Below are positions 12,120-22,061 of a DNA stretch of 52,450 nt, piece after piece. A model generated the notes under the pieces. The model searched no databases and was not told the DNA's origin. It was given only the letters and a program-made list of their open reading frames with translations. The number at the start of each line of letters is the position of its first letter. The first letter of the stretch is position 1. The position numbers and the translations under genes were made by a program. This DNA comes from a bacterium (GTDB lineage: Bacteria > Patescibacteriota > Gracilibacteria > Peribacterales > Peribacteraceae): assembly GCA_027623015.1 (NCBI GenBank), contig JAQBVR010000004.1:1-52450 (forward strand), in the 5' to 3' direction.

Positions 12120-13577
12120 CTACACCAACTCCAACTCCCTCTCGATAGCCCTCATCTCCCGCAATAAATTTGGGTCATTGTGTGCTTTACGCTCGATCTT
12201 GCTTACTGCATTCATAACAGTGGTGTGATCTCGGTTCGAAAATATCTCTCCAAGGCGCACATACGTTATACCCAAATGCTTCTTACCAAGGTACATCGCA
12301 ATCTGCCGTGGAATAAGTATCTCATGAACACGAGACGTACCTACCATATCTTGTATAGACACTGAGTAATATCTGCTCGTGGACTCCATAAGATCTTGGA
12401 AAGTAGCGCGCTTCTTCACAACCTTTTCAAAGCCAGTGTCATTGGCCTCATCCATAGGATTTTGCGTCAACTTACCCATGATCTCCGCGATGCTTTTGAT
12501 AGTAGGCATACGCTGCTCTAATTCGTACTGTGCAACAGCCTGCATCAAGATACCTTCAAGATCGCGGACACTACCCGTTGTGTGCTCTGCGATAAACTCA
12601 AGGACTTTCATATCGAGAAAGAGCTCGAAGTCCTGTGTCTTCTCTACAAGAATAGCAAGTCGCGTTTCATAGTCTGGTGCAGACACATCAGCGATCATTC
12701 CACGAGAGAAGCGAGACACAAGACGGTCATCAAGTTTCAGCTCCTGTGGAGGCCTATCTGCAGAGATAATAACTTGTTTATTATCCTCGTACAGTGCATT
12801 GAACGTGTGGAAGAATTCCTCTTGCGTTCGCTCTTTGTTTGCAAGGAATTGCACATCGTCAATAATAAGAACATCTACCTTACGGTAACGAGTACGCAAC
12901 TTCTCCATCTTCTGTGTACGGATCGCTTCGACCACTTGATTTGTGAAGTCTTCTGAAGTTGTATAGACCACAGCAGCCTTTGGCATCGTTTTCAAGATCG
13001 CATTTCCTGTAGCTTGCAGTAAGTGTGTCTTACCAAGTCCGACATCTCCATAAAGAAATAGTGGATTATATTTATCTCCTGGGTTTATAGACACAGCCTG
13101 ACAAGCAGCATGTGCAAGCCTGTTTCCAGATCCAACGATAAATCGCTCAAGACTGTAACGAGGATTAAGAATCTTACTAATAATACCTTCGGCCATCTTT
13201 ACTTCTTGACGCCCTGGCATCTTCCGTTTCTTAAGCTCTGGGAAGTGAATAAGTAAGTCTATACTTCGTTCTCTATTATCCTTGAGAGCACCATCTACCT
13301 TATAAACAATCTTTTCAATTGTCGAATCCAATCCCTGAATCGCCTCGAGTGTTGGACCACGATAATGCTCCATGTGCCAGTTAAGAGACATGGGAAGAGG
13401 TAGACCGACAATGATAGTCGTGTTGTCTTTTCCAAGAAGAGCTGTATCTCGAAACCACGTAATAAACTGACTACGCTGCATATTAGGCTCAAGTATGCGG
13501 AGCACCTCGACCCACAAGTCTTGCAACTTGCGATCTTCTACAGCCGGTAGTACTGCGCTAGAAGAGGCGGATGACAT
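12120..13577 (-). CDS. dnaA: Chromosomal replication initiator DnaA
   Basis: A 485-residue AAA+ initiator that binds DnaA boxes and melts the origin. Domain I is at about 15-95. The ATPase domain carries Walker A GDVGLGKTHL near 178, Walker B DVLIIDDVQFL near 238, and sensor-type SRFSRG near 290. The C-terminal DNA-binding domain carries SNRDHTTVMNAVSKIERK near 443. ATG 13577 is chosen by homology; the frame runs open further up. The start overlaps the end of rseP by 20 bp, so the two are coupled. dnaA is not next to dnaN or recF here, and no cluster of DnaA boxes is seen beside it. Confidence 0.97.
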   Translation of the reverse strand: MSSASSSAVLPAVEDRKLQDLWVEVLRILEPNMQRSQFITWFRDTALLGKDNTTIIVGLPLPMSLNWHMEHYRGPTLEAIQGLDSTIEKIVYKVDGALKDNRERSIDLLIHFPELKKRKMPGRQEVKMAEGIISKILNPRYSLERFIVGSGNRLAHAACQAVSINPGDKYNPLFLYGDVGLGKTHLLQATGNAILKTMPKAAVVYTTSEDFTNQVVEAIRTQKMEKLRTRYRKVDVLIIDDVQFLANKERTQEEFFHTFNALYEDNKQVIISADRPPQELKLDDRLVSRFSRGMIADVSAPDYETRLAILVEKTQDFELFLDMKVLEFIAEHTTGSVRDLEGILMQAVAQYELEQRMPTIKSIAEIMGKLTQNPMDEANDTGFEKVVKKRATFQDLMESTSRYYSVSIQDMVGTSRVHEILIPRQIAMYLGKKHLGITYVRLGEIFSNRDHTTVMNAVSKIERKAHNDPNLLREMRAIERELELV

Positions 13578-14670
13578 CGTAAAAGGTAATAAGGAAGATG
13601 AGAGCAAGTAAGAAGATGAATCCAACCATATTGACGGTAACCTCTAAGCGACGATTTACAGGTCGTCCAGTAATACCTTCTATCAAAACAAAGAGTAAAC
13701 GACCTCCGTCGAGTGCTGGAAAAGGAAGAATGTTTAGTATGGCTAGGCTCAAGCTGAGCAATGCCACTAAGCGAAGGTATGTCATAAACCCAGCTTGAAC
13801 AGACGCATGTGTAAGCTGAGCAATACCAACAAGCCCTGTGATACCCTCTGGTACCTTGGCTGTACGGGCAAGCGAAGAAAAGAGTTGACCTATACCTATC
13901 ACTGTCTGCTTCGTCATGACCTTTGCTTCACGGAGAGCGAGAACAAATGCCTCCCACACATTGCGATCTGGTGCAGAGATATCAAACGGTAAGAGAGAGA
14001 TGAGTACTCCAGATTTTCCTTCGTCAAGAGTAACGCGAAATGTCTCTTCTTCTATAAACCCTTCTCCAGTTTTTACGACATATGTCACAAGAGTTTTCCC
14101 TGCTTGAATTTCTTGAACATCTAGCGTCTCCTGCACTGGTGTTCCATCGACAGATATGAGTAAACTTTTTTCAGGCACACCAACTTTTGCAGCACCACCT
14201 CCACTTATCACTTTATCGATAACTACACCGAGTTGCATCTGCAAAACTCCACCGTCCTGAGCAGCGCGCATTTCGTCAATCGTGAAATATGTTGGTATCC
14301 AGTTACCAGCAGAGAAACCTACAGTAAGTAGTGAGACTGCAAGAAGAAAATTCATAAACACACCTGCAACCAAGATGCACACTCGAGCAGGAATAGATGC
14401 TGAAGAAAAACTTCCAGGAGCTCGTCTCTCTTTTTCTGTCATTGCATTCTCTCCTTTTAATCGAACGAAACCGCCAAATGGGATCCAGTTTAATGTGAAC
14501 TCCGTCCCCTTTTGCTTAAAGAGTGTACGTGCCTTTGGTGGCAGTCCAAAGCCAAATTCCTCAACGACAACTCCAGCTTTTCTTGCAGCAGCGAAGTGAC
14601 CCCACTCATGAATAACAACGAGAACACTAAGCAGTAAAATAAATGCGACTGCTGAAAGAAGAATGGTCAT
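13558..14670 (-). CDS. rseP: Site-2 zinc metalloprotease RseP (M50)
   Basis: A 370-residue intramembrane protease. HEWGH (21-25) in the first helix and NILPFPALDGGRL near 312 form the zinc and active site. A PDZ domain lies between (about 125-205). The last two helices follow. The family cuts membrane-bound anti-sigma factors or leftover signal peptides. ATG 14670 is preceded by a U/C-rich flank (TTTCTTTCTCT) and no Shine-Dalgarno. It is directly upstream of dnaA with overlapping ends. Length and layout are normal. Confidence 0.95.
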   Translation of the reverse strand: MTILLSAVAFILLLSVLVVIHEWGHFAAARKAGVVVEEFGFGLPPKARTLFKQKGTEFTLNWIPFGGFVRLKGENAMTEKERRAPGSFSSASIPARVCILVAGVFMNFLLAVSLLTVGFSAGNWIPTYFTIDEMRAAQDGGVLQMQLGVVIDKVISGGGAAKVGVPEKSLLISVDGTPVQETLDVQEIQAGKTLVTYVVKTGEGFIEEETFRVTLDEGKSGVLISLLPFDISAPDRNVWEAFVLALREAKVMTKQTVIGIGQLFSSLARTAKVPEGITGLVGIAQLTHASVQAGFMTYLRLVALLSLSLAILNILPFPALDGGRLLFVLIEGITGRPVNRRLEVTVNMVGFIFLLALIFLITFYDVIRLF

Positions 14671-16538: not shown

Positions 16539-16544
16539 TATAAT
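16539..16544 (+). promoter_or_regulatory. TATAAT -10 box, 8 nt before a TTG start
   Basis: TTTTCCGCTATAAT ends at 16544. The same 14-bp pattern with one change (TTTTTCGCTATAAT) precedes the gene at 26612. No clear -35 is seen. The likely start point is at or just before the TTG at 16553, which would make the message leaderless. Confidence 0.5.
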
Positions 16545-16552
16545 TAAATGAT

Positions 16553-17035
16553 TTGGAAACACAAATACCAACAGACATTCCTCTACTCTCTTGGAGAGCA
16601 CGACGCCGGCCCCTACATGAACGAACACACGTGTGGTATACAATCGCTACCATCGTCACAGGTGTGCTGTTTGGATACAGCATCGCAACGAAAGCATGGA
16701 CATTTGCAGGACTTATCGTTCTCACTGCAGTTGCGTACTGGTTTGGACACAGGATAGAAGATCCAGTCGATGAGATCGCGATATGGGTAGAAGGATTCTT
16801 ACTCGATGGACAATTTGTCCCATGGAGTCACTGCAAAGGATTTTGGCTCAACCAAACTCGCGAATTCACGGAGCTTCGCATCGACCACGACAAAACAATA
16901 AATAGAGACCTCATCATACACACAGGGCCTGTCAGCCCATTGGCGATCCGTACTGTTTTTTCTGGATTCATTCCAGAATTAACACAGCGCAGAGAACCAG
17001 TACTTGACATTATACAAAGATTATGCAAAATTTAG
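16553..17035 (+). CDS. Two-helix membrane protein with C-terminal beta-rich domain
   Basis: A 160-residue protein. A basic N-terminus (SWRARRRPLHERTHVWY) precedes two close hydrophobic helices (about 29-46 and 48-65). Then comes a 90-residue soluble domain (EDPVDEIAIWVEGFLLDGQF, SHCKGFWLNQ) with the alternation of a PH-like beta domain. Similar small proteins with a HERxxxWY start are common in CPR, function unknown. TTG 16553 is the only usable start in frame: an ATG at 16548 is out of frame and a TAA precedes. The stop is 1 bp before the ATG of the giant protein, so they are almost certainly co-translated and may act together at the membrane. Confidence 0.7.
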   Translation: METQIPTDIPLLSWRARRRPLHERTHVWYTIATIVTGVLFGYSIATKAWTFAGLIVLTAVAYWFGHRIEDPVDEIAIWVEGFLLDGQFVPWSHCKGFWLNQTREFTELRIDHDKTINRDLIIHTGPVSPLAIRTVFSGFIPELTQRREPVLDIIQRLCKI

Positions 17036-17036
17036 C

Positions 17037-20000
17037 ATGCTGCACCACAGCACACACAACCAAATTGCCTTCAACCTTAGCCCCGAATGGGAGCGTAGGT
17101 TGCTTTGTGTAACGGGTGATGACGATACGAGTGGCCTAGAATCCCTTGGTTCTGCAGAGAATCTTAAGGGTTTAGAAGATACAGGCACTTCTATTGAAAG
17201 CATGCAAGCTACGATTGGTAGTGCCATAAACGCTGGAGTCCTGAGCAAAGAAAACCTAGAAGCCATCGTCCATAACCCCTCAATCCTGAGTGCTGCTCTC
17301 CAGAGCGGACTTATGAGTGATGAAAAGCGCTATGAGCTAGAGCAGTTCCTACGAAAGAAGGAACCCGAAACCTTTGGCAACCTGCACCCAGAATTACACA
17401 TCCCTGCTAGGCAGATCGTAGAATTCCTACAAAATGAAGATAATGCAGACACTGCGGAGAGTGTGAAAGATGTTCTATCGGAGACACTAGATACTCCCGA
17501 AGCACTACTGAGTCTTACCACGCAGCTCGACCAACGCCTTGGAAAGTATGAGCTTCTCCAGAAGATCCTCTACGAACACGGAGGACTCAGTGTCGGAAAC
17601 CTGATCAACATAGAGAAGATTCAGCAGTTCTTCGATGAATGGCACATGAAAGGCCTAGAAGGAAACGAGGTAGATATTGCTGACTGGCTTTGTGATACGT
17701 ATGACATCCGAGAACCTGATGCAGGTAAGCTTTCTAAGGTATTCAATGAAATCTTTAACAATGACCTCGACCCTGAACTCACCAGAAACATCGAAGTTAT
17801 CGGAACAAATCCTGATCCGAAGAATGCTGAGTTTAATCGCGCTAACGAAGCTGCTCTTAAGCGCATTAAAAAGATTGCACTAGAGAATGGGGACGCAAAA
17901 CAAAAACTAGGAAGACTAGAAGCATCGTACAAAGGACTGAAGCACCGTATCTCTCATGCAACGACTGCATTTACGCAGTTCCTCCGCATGCAAGACAACG
18001 ACCAGTTTGTTACACCAAGCAATGAAACACAACGCAACAGACCACAGACAGTCGATGCACTACGCAGTGAAGTACAGAAGCTGAAGATTGCACTCGATGG
18101 GAATCTGAAAGAGCGAGCAGCACTATTAGAGTCCAACCTCAAAAATCGACTAGAGCAAGATGGCGTACTGGATGCGGATGGAACGCTGAATGCAGAACTT
18201 GTAAACAACCCAGATGAAGTACGGGCTCTCTATGGCATCAGCAACTATGCCTTGCTTGGTCAGGTAATCCCTCGTGCATATGGTGACGTCCAGCGTATTC
18301 AGCGTATAGCAGATCCAGAAGTTCCAGCGAATGAACAAGATGTCGCTCCAGAAATTGGTGATGAAAACTATTTAAGCTATGCACGTAATGCACTCACACA
18401 ACTCGATGAACTCGAACGACGCGAAGGTGATAGAGATGCCACTGGCCATAGAGGGTTTGAAGAACAATACTTCGATGAAGCAGTATTTGAGCAAGAGCAA
18501 TCTACGCAGTGGGCGCAACGCATCGTCAGCGAAGGCAAGCTCCAAGCGCTAACTACTGAAATCGTTAATGGAAACATCCCTGAATCTGTAACCACAATCC
18601 AAGACCTCTTACGTGATGAACTACAATACCAAGACGATGGTACAGATCCTGAGCTGAAGAAAGATCAACTCACAGAAGCAGACATCGATGAATTCCCACA
18701 AGCACTTGTTGCACTGAGGAAACTTGCAGTGAAAGTCGCACGACCATCTGCTTCGGGTCAGGACATCACAGAACTCTACTACCAACTCAATCGCTTTGGC
18801 CAAGACCGCATCATGATGATCTTAGGACTTCTGGAAGACCGTAGAACACGAGAAGGAATAACCAAGGTTCGTGCACAACTTGCAGATACAAAAGAGGTTC
18901 TCAACAACGAACAAACACGTGACAAGCTTACTGCAGATGTAGCAGGCCTCCGCGAAAGTCTCTCTGGTCACAAGCATCTCAAGCACACCGTCTGTAAAAC
19001 ACTACAAATAGGCGATGGGCTGAATATGCAGTACGGAGAAATCTTAACAAAGCTGAAGTACGCAAGTGCGTATGAAGGGAAGAAGAAGGCACTCAAGTCA
19101 GTACGAGAAGCAAAAGTACGGATAGACCAAATGAAACAAGCGGTAAAGTTCCTCGATGGTCTCGACAATGCATTTGAAGAATACCAGGGCGATGTTGGTA
19201 GTGAGACATTTGGTGCCATCACTGGAGATAAGAATGCACCGGCATTTTACAACCGTGATACAGGTATGATCATGCTCAACCGTCCTGCTATCACAAAAAG
19301 CAAAAAGAGCTTAGATGAACATAAAAGACATGAGACTGGGCATGCCATTTTGCACATTCTTACAGAACGCAGCGGTCTTCTCGATGGAAAACTCTTCCAG
19401 ATCTTAAACATCATCCGACAAGATGTGCCGCAGAGTGAAAAGATGTTTGGCTCAAACACTACATTTGAAAAGCTATTACACAAACAAGCAGTCAAATGGG
19501 GGCTAGAACGAAAAGAGGCGATCATTCTGTACCGTGCAAACCAAGAACTGGGAGACCAAAATGCTGCAGCAGCGAAAACAAAAGAGCAATTTGATGAACT
19601 ACTCTTCGATGAACTCATCAACAAGCACGCAGACTGGGTAGAAGGTGGAAGAAAAACAGATAGCACTGACCCCGAGCAAATTGCACTATTCCAGCATATC
19701 GATGACACACTGGTAACAGACGACCAAAAGATCACACTCGACCAGCAGCTTCTCCACAATGCAGAACTCGGTGTTGGAAAAGTAGATGAGGCTCTAGGTT
19801 CATTCGACAATGGAGATGACGACAATGGAGGAAGTAGTGATGCAAGCGCAGACTATGACACTGAAAGAATGCGCGCAATAAATGATAGTGGCGCTGGAAA
19901 TGGCGAAGGTGGAAACGGGAATGGTCAAGATGGTTCTGGAGACTCTATGGACGATGATGAAAATAGAGCAGATAAGAATGAAGTCTTCTCTCTAGATATC

Positions 20001-22061
20001 AACAAGAAAATCCGTGACCAAAGAGCAGAAATAGAAAAGATCCGTGTCACGTATGAGTCATACCGTGAATTCAAGTCTGTCCTTGAGCCAAAGTATGTGC
20101 ACTTCCTCAGTGCACACAATCATGTAAAAGAGGCGTTCTTAAATAAGACATCAGAAGATGAAAATGTAAACACTGCATTGCTCTACATAGACGACAGTAT
20201 GGCAGGAGTACTACAAATACTTAAAGACATCAAAAACAAGAAACTAGACCTGACCAATGCTCCAAGGGAAGGGAAGAAGGGCTGGAGAAGGATCTGGGAC
20301 CATGTGGAATTTATGAGTGTGATGGACATAGTAAATATGGTGAAGTCTGGTGCAGAAGACATTGCTCGTATGTGGAAGCGACGTGGCGAAGCTATGCAAG
20401 CTCGTGTAGGAGAAGGTCTTACAGGCTGGATACCAAATAGTGTGCCATATGCAGGCCGACTAAAGAACGAATACCACAAACGAGCGAAGACGTCTGAAGT
20501 AGAAGAAGTAAACCAATGGAAAGAAGCCCTCAAAGATGACGATAGCTACGAACTCCAAGATCTTCTGGGAACAACACGTAACCCCGATATGGTCCGTGCC
20601 ATCCTTGAATTACTTCAGGAACGTGGACGTATGAACTGGAACGATGAAAAGTTCTGGATAACTCTGAACGCACTCTCAAACTACAACATGCCTATCGACG
20701 CATGTAGACAAGATGATGTACTGCGAGACCGCTGGCTCCAGAAGCTTATCACCGACATCTTCGGAGACAAAGAACACTACTTCAACTGGAAGCAAGGAAA
20801 CGACAGTGCTGTTGAATCTGGCAAAAAGAAATTCACACCAACAGTAGACCAATACGCGAACGTTAGGGGTGGTATGGACGCTGCTCTCGCAAATATGTTG
20901 GAGCTCTTTGTAGAAGGAGATAAACGAGGAAACATCCCCGAAGAAGTAAACCCCCACCTGTACGAAGAGATCATTCACTATGCGATTCGTTATGGAAAGA
21001 TGTCCATGGAAGGCAAGTTCTTCTATCTGATCCAAGGAATTCGATGGGGCCTTCTCCCCATCGACCGTCTACGTACGATGGCTGGTTCTGGAGGAGAATT
21101 CATCAACACCTTCCCATTCATCGACTACTTCTACCAAAAGAACAACACACTCGAAGAGGTCATCGCACTTGGAAAACGATTGGATGGAGAAGAAAATAAA
21201 TTCAAACCTGACAAGAAGACAACCATGTTCGTTCGTATGGAAATCGCAAGAGAAGAGAGTGTAAAGCAACGACTGCGAAAAGGTGTTTCAAAGAAAGGAG
21301 AGGAGACAGACCATGATGACATCCCCTACTTCATCCCTGAGCTCGACTACGGTAGCGTCGATGAATGGCTATCTAACATGAGTGGAAGCCGACAGAAACT
21401 TAGTAAAGAAGCCCTCAAAAACGCTTACGTGGGCTATAGCATGAAATTCAAAACCTTTGCCGTATTGGCAGAAGCTGACCAAAATAAAAGTATGCGATTT
21501 ACGAGTGCGGACATCAAAGATATGGCCAATACAATAGGCTCATACATCCATGGAGATAACATCCTCACAAAAAACGGATTTACAGATAAGAACGTACGAC
21601 CGTCATTGAGCCGAGGAGAATTTGGGCAAAAAGCAGTAATGGCCAATGGGGAAAACTCTGTAGCTGAATACCGCAACAACGTGAACAAGTTTATCGGTGC
21701 AGCTATGGATATTTATATGAATGATGATGCTGTATGGAACAAAATAAACGCTCATAGAGGAGCCCGAACTCCAGAGGAGATTGCAACGCGAAAAAAAAAG
21801 AGGTTGTGGATCGACAGATCAAACTTCGCACTACTTGATTTAGAAAAAAATACATCGAACATGCCACTTGTACGAGAAATAGCTGAATCAACTGGCAAGT
21901 TTATCGAGATCCTAGAGGCAAGGATGCTTGCAAATCCTGAGGCATTTAAAGAATTATTGAGACAATTTAGCTCAGGTGATAAAGCGAAACATTTCATCGC
22001 AGATGGCCCATCTGGAGGATTCACCAACAAAGAAATGTTGAAACTATACAACGGAAAATAA
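17037..22061 (+). CDS. Giant 1674-residue protein with HETGH metallopeptidase-like motif
   Basis: No family recognised over most of its length. It starts MLHHSTHNQIAFNLSPEWER with no signal peptide or transmembrane segment, so it looks cytoplasmic. Residues 1-720 are mostly alpha-helical with several predicted coiled-coil-like stretches. At about 735-790 lies ITGDKNAPAFYNRDTGMIML, then HETGH (765-769) and AILHILTERSGLL: the HExxH pattern of a zincin peptidase, with a hydrophobic strand before it as usual. An Asp/Gly/Asn-rich linker (about 920-982) separates this from a C-terminal helical half (983-1674). ATG 17037 follows the previous gene's stop by 1 bp; dut follows after 40 bp. One uninterrupted frame of 5 kb with even codon use argues for a functional gene. 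Confidence 0.85.
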   Translation: MLHHSTHNQIAFNLSPEWERRLLCVTGDDDTSGLESLGSAENLKGLEDTGTSIESMQATIGSAINAGVLSKENLEAIVHNPSILSAALQSGLMSDEKRYELEQFLRKKEPETFGNLHPELHIPARQIVEFLQNEDNADTAESVKDVLSETLDTPEALLSLTTQLDQRLGKYELLQKILYEHGGLSVGNLINIEKIQQFFDEWHMKGLEGNEVDIADWLCDTYDIREPDAGKLSKVFNEIFNNDLDPELTRNIEVIGTNPDPKNAEFNRANEAALKRIKKIALENGDAKQKLGRLEASYKGLKHRISHATTAFTQFLRMQDNDQFVTPSNETQRNRPQTVDALRSEVQKLKIALDGNLKERAALLESNLKNRLEQDGVLDADGTLNAELVNNPDEVRALYGISNYALLGQVIPRAYGDVQRIQRIADPEVPANEQDVAPEIGDENYLSYARNALTQLDELERREGDRDATGHRGFEEQYFDEAVFEQEQSTQWAQRIVSEGKLQALTTEIVNGNIPESVTTIQDLLRDELQYQDDGTDPELKKDQLTEADIDEFPQALVALRKLAVKVARPSASGQDITELYYQLNRFGQDRIMMILGLLEDRRTREGITKVRAQLADTKEVLNNEQTRDKLTADVAGLRESLSGHKHLKHTVCKTLQIGDGLNMQYGEILTKLKYASAYEGKKKALKSVREAKVRIDQMKQAVKFLDGLDNAFEEYQGDVGSETFGAITGDKNAPAFYNRDTGMIMLNRPAITKSKKSLDEHKRHETGHAILHILTERSGLLDGKLFQILNIIRQDVPQSEKMFGSNTTFEKLLHKQAVKWGLERKEAIILYRANQELGDQNAAAAKTKEQFDELLFDELINKHADWVEGGRKTDSTDPEQIALFQHIDDTLVTDDQKITLDQQLLHNAELGVGKVDEALGSFDNGDDDNGGSSDASADYDTERMRAINDSGAGNGEGGNGNGQDGSGDSMDDDENRADKNEVFSLDINKKIRDQRAEIEKIRVTYESYREFKSVLEPKYVHFLSAHNHVKEAFLNKTSEDENVNTALLYIDDSMAGVLQILKDIKNKKLDLTNAPREGKKGWRRIWDHVEFMSVMDIVNMVKSGAEDIARMWKRRGEAMQARVGEGLTGWIPNSVPYAGRLKNEYHKRAKTSEVEEVNQWKEALKDDDSYELQDLLGTTRNPDMVRAILELLQERGRMNWNDEKFWITLNALSNYNMPIDACRQDDVLRDRWLQKLITDIFGDKEHYFNWKQGNDSAVESGKKKFTPTVDQYANVRGGMDAALANMLELFVEGDKRGNIPEEVNPHLYEEIIHYAIRYGKMSMEGKFFYLIQGIRWGLLPIDRLRTMAGSGGEFINTFPFIDYFYQKNNTLEEVIALGKRLDGEENKFKPDKKTTMFVRMEIAREESVKQRLRKGVSKKGEETDHDDIPYFIPELDYGSVDEWLSNMSGSRQKLSKEALKNAYVGYSMKFKTFAVLAEADQNKSMRFTSADIKDMANTIGSYIHGDNILTKNGFTDKNVRPSLSRGEFGQKAVMANGENSVAEYRNNVNKFIGAAMDIYMNDDAVWNKINAHRGARTPEEIATRKKKRLWIDRSNFALLDLEKNTSNMPLVREIAESTGKFIEILEARMLANPEAFKELLRQFSSGDKAKHFIADGPSGGFTNKEMLKLYNGK

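Follow-up and report, generated by a model that had tools for sequence, protein, structure and literature searches.

A giant protein of Candidatus Peribacteraceae with a predicted M78-like gluzincin domain is encoded directly behind a small membrane protein

Introduction

The locus described here raises the question why an ultra-small bacterium with a genome of 1.1 Mb, a member of Candidatus Peribacteraceae (Patescibacteria), devotes 5 kb to a single gene near dnaA. We analysed the gene within a stretch of 52,450 nucleotides (hereafter the window, to whose positions all coordinates refer unless a locus handle is given). A preliminary description of this DNA had proposed that the gene product, referred to as the giant in the following, is a large metallopeptidase-like or structural protein that is anchored or regulated by a membrane protein encoded immediately upstream. 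In the open-access literature, we found no paper describing the giant family, and in the literature searched, the architecture of the giant, the fold of its core and the gene pairing are undescribed, whereas its catalytic motif belongs to a familiar type.

Results

The giant gene (17037-22061, plus strand) encodes 1674 residues, is present as a single copy in the 1.1-Mb genome and covers 9.6% of the window, in agreement with the tenth estimated before. The absence of a recognised domain and of a signal peptide, also part of the preliminary description, held up: searches of the 1674-residue protein against Pfam and NCBIfam gave no match, and hydropathy revealed neither a membrane segment nor a signal peptide (strongest 19-residue value 1.1). 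The long helical parts that had been noted are likewise reflected in AlphaFold2 models, which are almost wholly helical.

The gene is flanked on one side, on the opposite strand, by genes for a ComF-like protein (a name that is our own reading of a weak phosphoribosyltransferase match), an M50 peptidase, DnaA and ThrRS, and on the other side by those for dUTPase, a 5'-3' exonuclease, FtsA and FtsZ. This setting is an ordinary chromosome near dnaA and no mobile island, and a mobile or phage nature of the giant gene was rejected, as collections of phages and plasmids contained nothing similar. The M50 peptidase gene, which is of the site-2-protease type and lies between dnaA and the giant (13558-14670, minus strand), is kept in about 20 Peribacteraceae loci. 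Elsewhere in the same genome (L178:11976-17001), two tandem pairs, each of a small gene and a gene with one membrane segment, are followed by a large open-ended reading frame.

Of 96 related genomes, 53 contain a homologue of the giant, as do 32 of the 380 examined phylum-wide, and all of these belong to the same class; the named relatives that carry it are mostly Candidatus Peribacteraceae, Peribacteria or Peregrinibacteria. Within the family, the full-size form or a part of it is present in 35 of the 57 sampled genomes, as counted from the homologue table. The choice of query mattered in these searches, as a scan of the collection with the single giant protein gave no match and relatives were found with an alignment as query. 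At two loci of distant class members (L078:11118-19001 and L080:1-7806), the giant gene is directly followed on the same strand by that of a second giant, which exceeds 2600 residues, and these two second giants are homologous to each other.

Upstream, the small membrane protein (16553-17035, plus strand; 160 aa, TTG start, TAG stop) consists of two hydrophobic helices (about residues 26-65) followed by a domain of about 95 residues that is predicted to be cytoplasmic. Positively charged residues before the first and after the second helix suggest a cytoplasmic location for both termini. Neither protein family nor PDB sequence collections contained a match to it. The TAG ends at 17035 and the ATG of the giant stands at 17037, one base past the stop, as described before. 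A TATAAT box at 16539-16553, 8 bases before the TTG start, is absent from the list of a consensus promoter scan, which itself gave no excess over shuffled sequences; given the placement of this box, the transcript of the membrane gene could be leaderless.

The proposed check of the two-gene order in relatives came out positively throughout the Peribacteraceae. Of 29 loci of this family, 28 have between -1 and +8 bases from the stop of the membrane gene to the start of the giant, and 24 have between -1 and +2, figures for which the start candidate nearest to +1 was picked, a choice that favours small gaps, though few alternatives existed. From these distances, the giant appears to be translated in step with the membrane protein. 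The membrane-protein family, found in 84 of the 96 relatives and in 231 of 287 genomes sampled from the whole phylum Patescibacteria, is far more widespread than the giant. In other classes of the phylum, the gene is mostly solitary, with VirB2-like genes near it in a few of the loci listed among the 20 inspected, and hence the membrane protein must have a role that is independent of the giant. In other families, a gene for 500-880 residues behind the membrane protein was considered as a form of the giant and rejected (hhalign probabilities of 0.04% and 0.2%).

One could argue from this phylum-wide occurrence, usually away from the giant outside the class, that the two genes are merely transcribed together for convenience, as suits a compact genome, and that their products have no joint function. 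The coupling within -1 to +8 bases is, however, kept family-wide despite varying flanking genes, and the adjacency even survives the replacement of the giant by a short form (see below), which makes a pairing of convenience improbable to us.

The giant contains exactly one HExxH motif, HETGH at residues 765-769 (19329-19343, plus strand), with H765 and H769 as presumed zinc ligands and E766 as the presumed catalytic residue. It lies within a domain of about residues 640-905 (18954-19751, plus strand). The number of such motifs expected by chance from the composition of the giant is 0.06, which is low but not decisive; the single motif becomes significant because H765, E766, H769 and E859 are kept in 33 of the 34 Peribacteraceae giants that reach this region, so that the motif is retained in the full-size family, as the homologue check had asked. 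In the sole exception, L042, it reads EEKEH. Among 33 aligned relatives, the N-terminal half shows a mean identity of only 17%, with E19, E766, H769 and E859 as its only invariant residues and H765 conserved in more than 90% of the same sequences. The invariant E859 (19611-19613, plus strand; family consensus LMDELxNKYA) represents a candidate third ligand, and the spacing between H769 and this Glu varies from 56 to 94 residues in the family.

The AlphaFold2 model agrees with the placement of the motif behind a strand that had been postulated from the sequence. It predicts a strand at residues 744-748, a helix at 759-778 that carries HExxH and a further helix at 841-869 with E859, all at a pLDDT of 92-96. 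HETGH would thus sit in a helix and not in a surface loop, with a candidate third ligand at hand, and an HExxH helix behind a strand together with an invariant downstream Glu supports, as far as the model goes, the gluzincin pattern.

Profile comparison points to a particular kind of gluzincin. When the domain profile was aligned by hhalign with an M78 alignment built from peptidases of related genomes, a probability of 94.8% was obtained (E 5e-8, over 48 columns that span the strand and the active helix), compared with 0.9% and 0.04% for two unrelated alignments that served as negative controls. In a profile search of the PDB, IrrE proteins came out on top (E 0.06-0.1), followed by FtsH and, further down, small neutral protease, none of them significant alone. 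At the gathering cut-off of Pfam PF06114, the window protein gave no match, and one of 33 relatives matched at E 0.002. The Glu helix ExEANxFA that M78 proteins carry about 30 residues past HExxH was not found, the family having xDELLxxYA at a spacing of 56-94 residues. Foldseek returned no significant match for either half of the giant, and PDB matches that paired the whole N-terminal half with de novo helical bundles were discarded as apparent composition matches.

In distant class members, HExxH and a later E-x-x-A helix are present in 9 of 15 giants, at a spacing of 47-76 residues according to an automatic alignment, and 6 of the 15 are devoid of an HExxH peptidase. Since the similarity between the peptidase regions of Peribacteraceae and those of the distant families is weak (12.5% probability), a common origin of the two is not apparent.

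Outside the peptidase-like domain, the giant comprises an N-terminal tag (residues 1-25, 17037-17111, plus strand; consensus MLxxxxxxxFAxxxSPxRERRLLxFA), the Asp/Gly linker noted before, which was located at about residues 911-985 as an Asp/Gly/Asn-rich segment of low model confidence (19767-19991, plus strand), and a C-terminal helical core (residues 1090-1560, 20304-21716, plus strand). The core is the most conserved part, with D1097, W1161, G1197, P1219, N1255, E1310, G1320, R1344, P1360, R1412, K1415, D1425, H1426, D1428 and N1462 invariant in the family, and its AlphaFold2 model reached a pLDDT of 85 and a pTM of 0.83. A known fold for the core was sought in the PDB and among viral models, and none was found.

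In nearly all cases checked, Peribacteraceae that lack the full-size form encode a short protein of about 790-1320 residues directly behind the same membrane gene. These short forms share the first 60-250 residues of the giant, and with them the tag (E about 1e-5 to 1e-14), and most of them also possess the front of the C-terminal core, with E values of 1e-11 to 1e-29 after two iterations that are optimistic, as some of these sequences were part of the iterations. The forms of 1110-1320 residues mostly carry HEL[TA]H followed by HE[IAG]L about 60 residues on; in those of about 790-870 residues at the same locus, no peptidase domain was seen. HExxH-like strings in some short forms, such as DHEKKH in L193, were rejected as peptidase motifs, as they lie inside the core region. 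In a tree of the core, which is rough owing to long branches and partial rows and has an arbitrary root, the short forms make up a clade of their own and the presence of the peptidase changes at least 4 times. As the short forms keep tag and core and the forms of about 790-870 residues are without a peptidase, tag and core represent the constant parts and the peptidase a module between them.

This modularity qualifies the metallopeptidase reading of the preliminary description. That part of it which concerns the domain itself stood, with its helical HExxH preceded by a strand, the distant invariant Glu and the clear preference for M78 over the controls; as a description of the giant as such it needs adjusting, given that the peptidase is missing from short forms and from six of the 15 distant giants, so that constancy lies in other parts of the protein. 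It is therefore conceivable that the giant is mainly a structural protein or scaffold, the zincin-like domain being an accessory or a pseudo-enzyme, i.e., a structural zinc fold or a peptide-binding module. The constancy of tag and core, the existence of forms and of six distant giants without HExxH, and a core whose conservation greatly exceeds that of the peptidase region would all fit. Within a fast-drifting region, however, the invariant positions are just the presumed ligands and the presumed catalytic Glu, and a structural zinc site alone has no need of E766, so that we regard a scaffold with an inactive domain as rather unlikely.

Clusters around the membrane partner in some other families hint at a link to type IV secretion. 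In four code-25 genomes (L203:3398-5437, L204:6684-8654, L205:7633-9591 and L206:2158-4184), the membrane gene stands fourth behind genes for PrgI, a TrsD-like and a VirB2-like protein, where PrgI was confirmed by Pfam in two of the four genomes and the other names are given by resemblance. The clusters continue with additional membrane genes, with SecG-like genes in two cases, and with a gene for a solute-binding-protein-like product of about 720 residues. Other families show the order membrane protein, unrelated soluble gene, further gene and polytopic protein, with the giant directly next in several of them, and in L202 a TrwB/HerA-type ATPase gene adjoins this locus. The polytopic membrane protein family is present in 87 of the 96 relatives (Gracilibacteria), for instance at L178:7666-9396 on the minus strand (G000:C12), L076:4133-6685 and L202:5845-7941, and in every one of the 15 Peribacteraceae genomes tabulated, 17-31 kb separate its gene from the membrane gene. 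By its VirB6/TrbL-like layout, that is, by topology only, the polytopic protein is a candidate VirB6; it has no Pfam match, sequence tests gave no tie to VirB6, and the TrbL_3 profile was uninformative, as it matched neither this protein nor the controls. The clustering itself is uneven, being seen for the membrane partner in the four code-25 genomes and not at most loci of other classes, and for the giant beside the VirB6-like gene in some families only. Homology to secretion subunits was not apparent for either protein, the giant giving no family or fold match and the membrane partner no family or PDB sequence match.

Such a link could also mean that the giant is itself a substrate, an effector that is exported by the secretion-like machinery and whose protease acts in a host bacterium. 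The association of the membrane partner with PrgI/TrsD/VirB2-like genes and of the giant with the VirB6-like gene in other families would be in accordance with this, as would the fast drift of the N-terminal half and the broad reliance on host organisms that is attributed to Patescibacteria (PMC12102498). Against it stand the single copy per genome, the fixed synteny with dnaA, dUTPase and ftsAZ and the lack of phage or plasmid copies; moreover, a helical multi-domain protein of 1674 residues is an unlikely substrate, and no export signal was seen in it. We regard export of the giant as improbable, to about the same degree as a pairing of convenience.

Discussion

Taken together, the best explanation from our point of view is that the locus encodes a cytoplasmic assembly associated with the membrane and equipped with a regulated zinc endopeptidase, and we assign a probability of roughly 0.55 to this reading. 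What can be read from the sequence are the coupling of the genes, the conserved HExxH and Glu, the strand-helix placement in the model and the modular loss of the peptidase; from there, we infer zinc binding, catalysis, a physical complex, a location of the giant at the membrane and a substrate. The two proteins would assemble on the inside of the cytoplasmic membrane, where the two-helix protein would form the membrane part with its C-terminal domain directed toward the cytoplasm, and the giant would serve as a cytoplasmic helical scaffold whose constant tag and core dock the assembly. Anchoring or regulation of the giant by the membrane protein, as suggested in the preliminary description, would be compatible with such an arrangement. 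In most Peribacteraceae, a putative M78-like gluzincin zinc endopeptidase would be placed between tag and core. Enzymes of the M78 type, among them ImmA and IrrE, act by cutting single regulators, and by analogy the likely action would be a site-specific, regulated cleavage of one or a few partners located at the membrane rather than bulk degradation. Should the domain prove to be proteolytically active, it would offer a first enzymatic entry point to a locus that is widespread in Gracilibacteria and unannotated.

It is less certain that the assembly serves the type IV secretion-like machinery of Patescibacteria. One could speculate that the pair represents an undescribed cytoplasmic module of a Gracilibacteria machine of this type, matured or switched by the M78-like protease that it contains, and that the linked polytopic protein is the VirB6 reported as missing, a proposal that we put forward only tentatively and consider unlikely in its entirety. 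A survey of type IV secretion in Patescibacteria found VirB6 scarce or absent in Gracilibacteria, and PrgI and TrsD not near virB4 (PMC12102498); the locus offers candidates for parts that this survey did not find.

Several known systems can be compared with the locus. In relation to the type IV secretion system described for Patescibacteria (VirB4/PrgI/TrsD/VirB2; PMC12102498), no VirB4 was identified beside the membrane partner and the giant has no counterpart among the described components. The likeness consists in the position of the membrane partner in a PrgI-TrsD-VirB2-like cluster in the four code-25 genomes and, in other families, in a polytopic protein of VirB6 layout between membrane partner and giant. 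DUF6782, M41 FtsH, WLM/Wss1 and eCIS_core (PF13699) share the HExxH active helix with the giant, but each was touched by one member or at a non-significant E value. As regards M78 (IrrE/ImmA type, PF06114, minigluzincins), we term the domain M78-like and not a member, because the motifs TIAHELGH and ExEANxFA are absent from it and the distance from the second His to the Glu is 56-94 residues in the giant family as compared with about 30 in the M78 members aligned. M78 proteins are furthermore small, whereas the domain here is embedded in a giant. What both have in common is the edge strand (IYVN-like), the HExGH helix and the later Glu helix.
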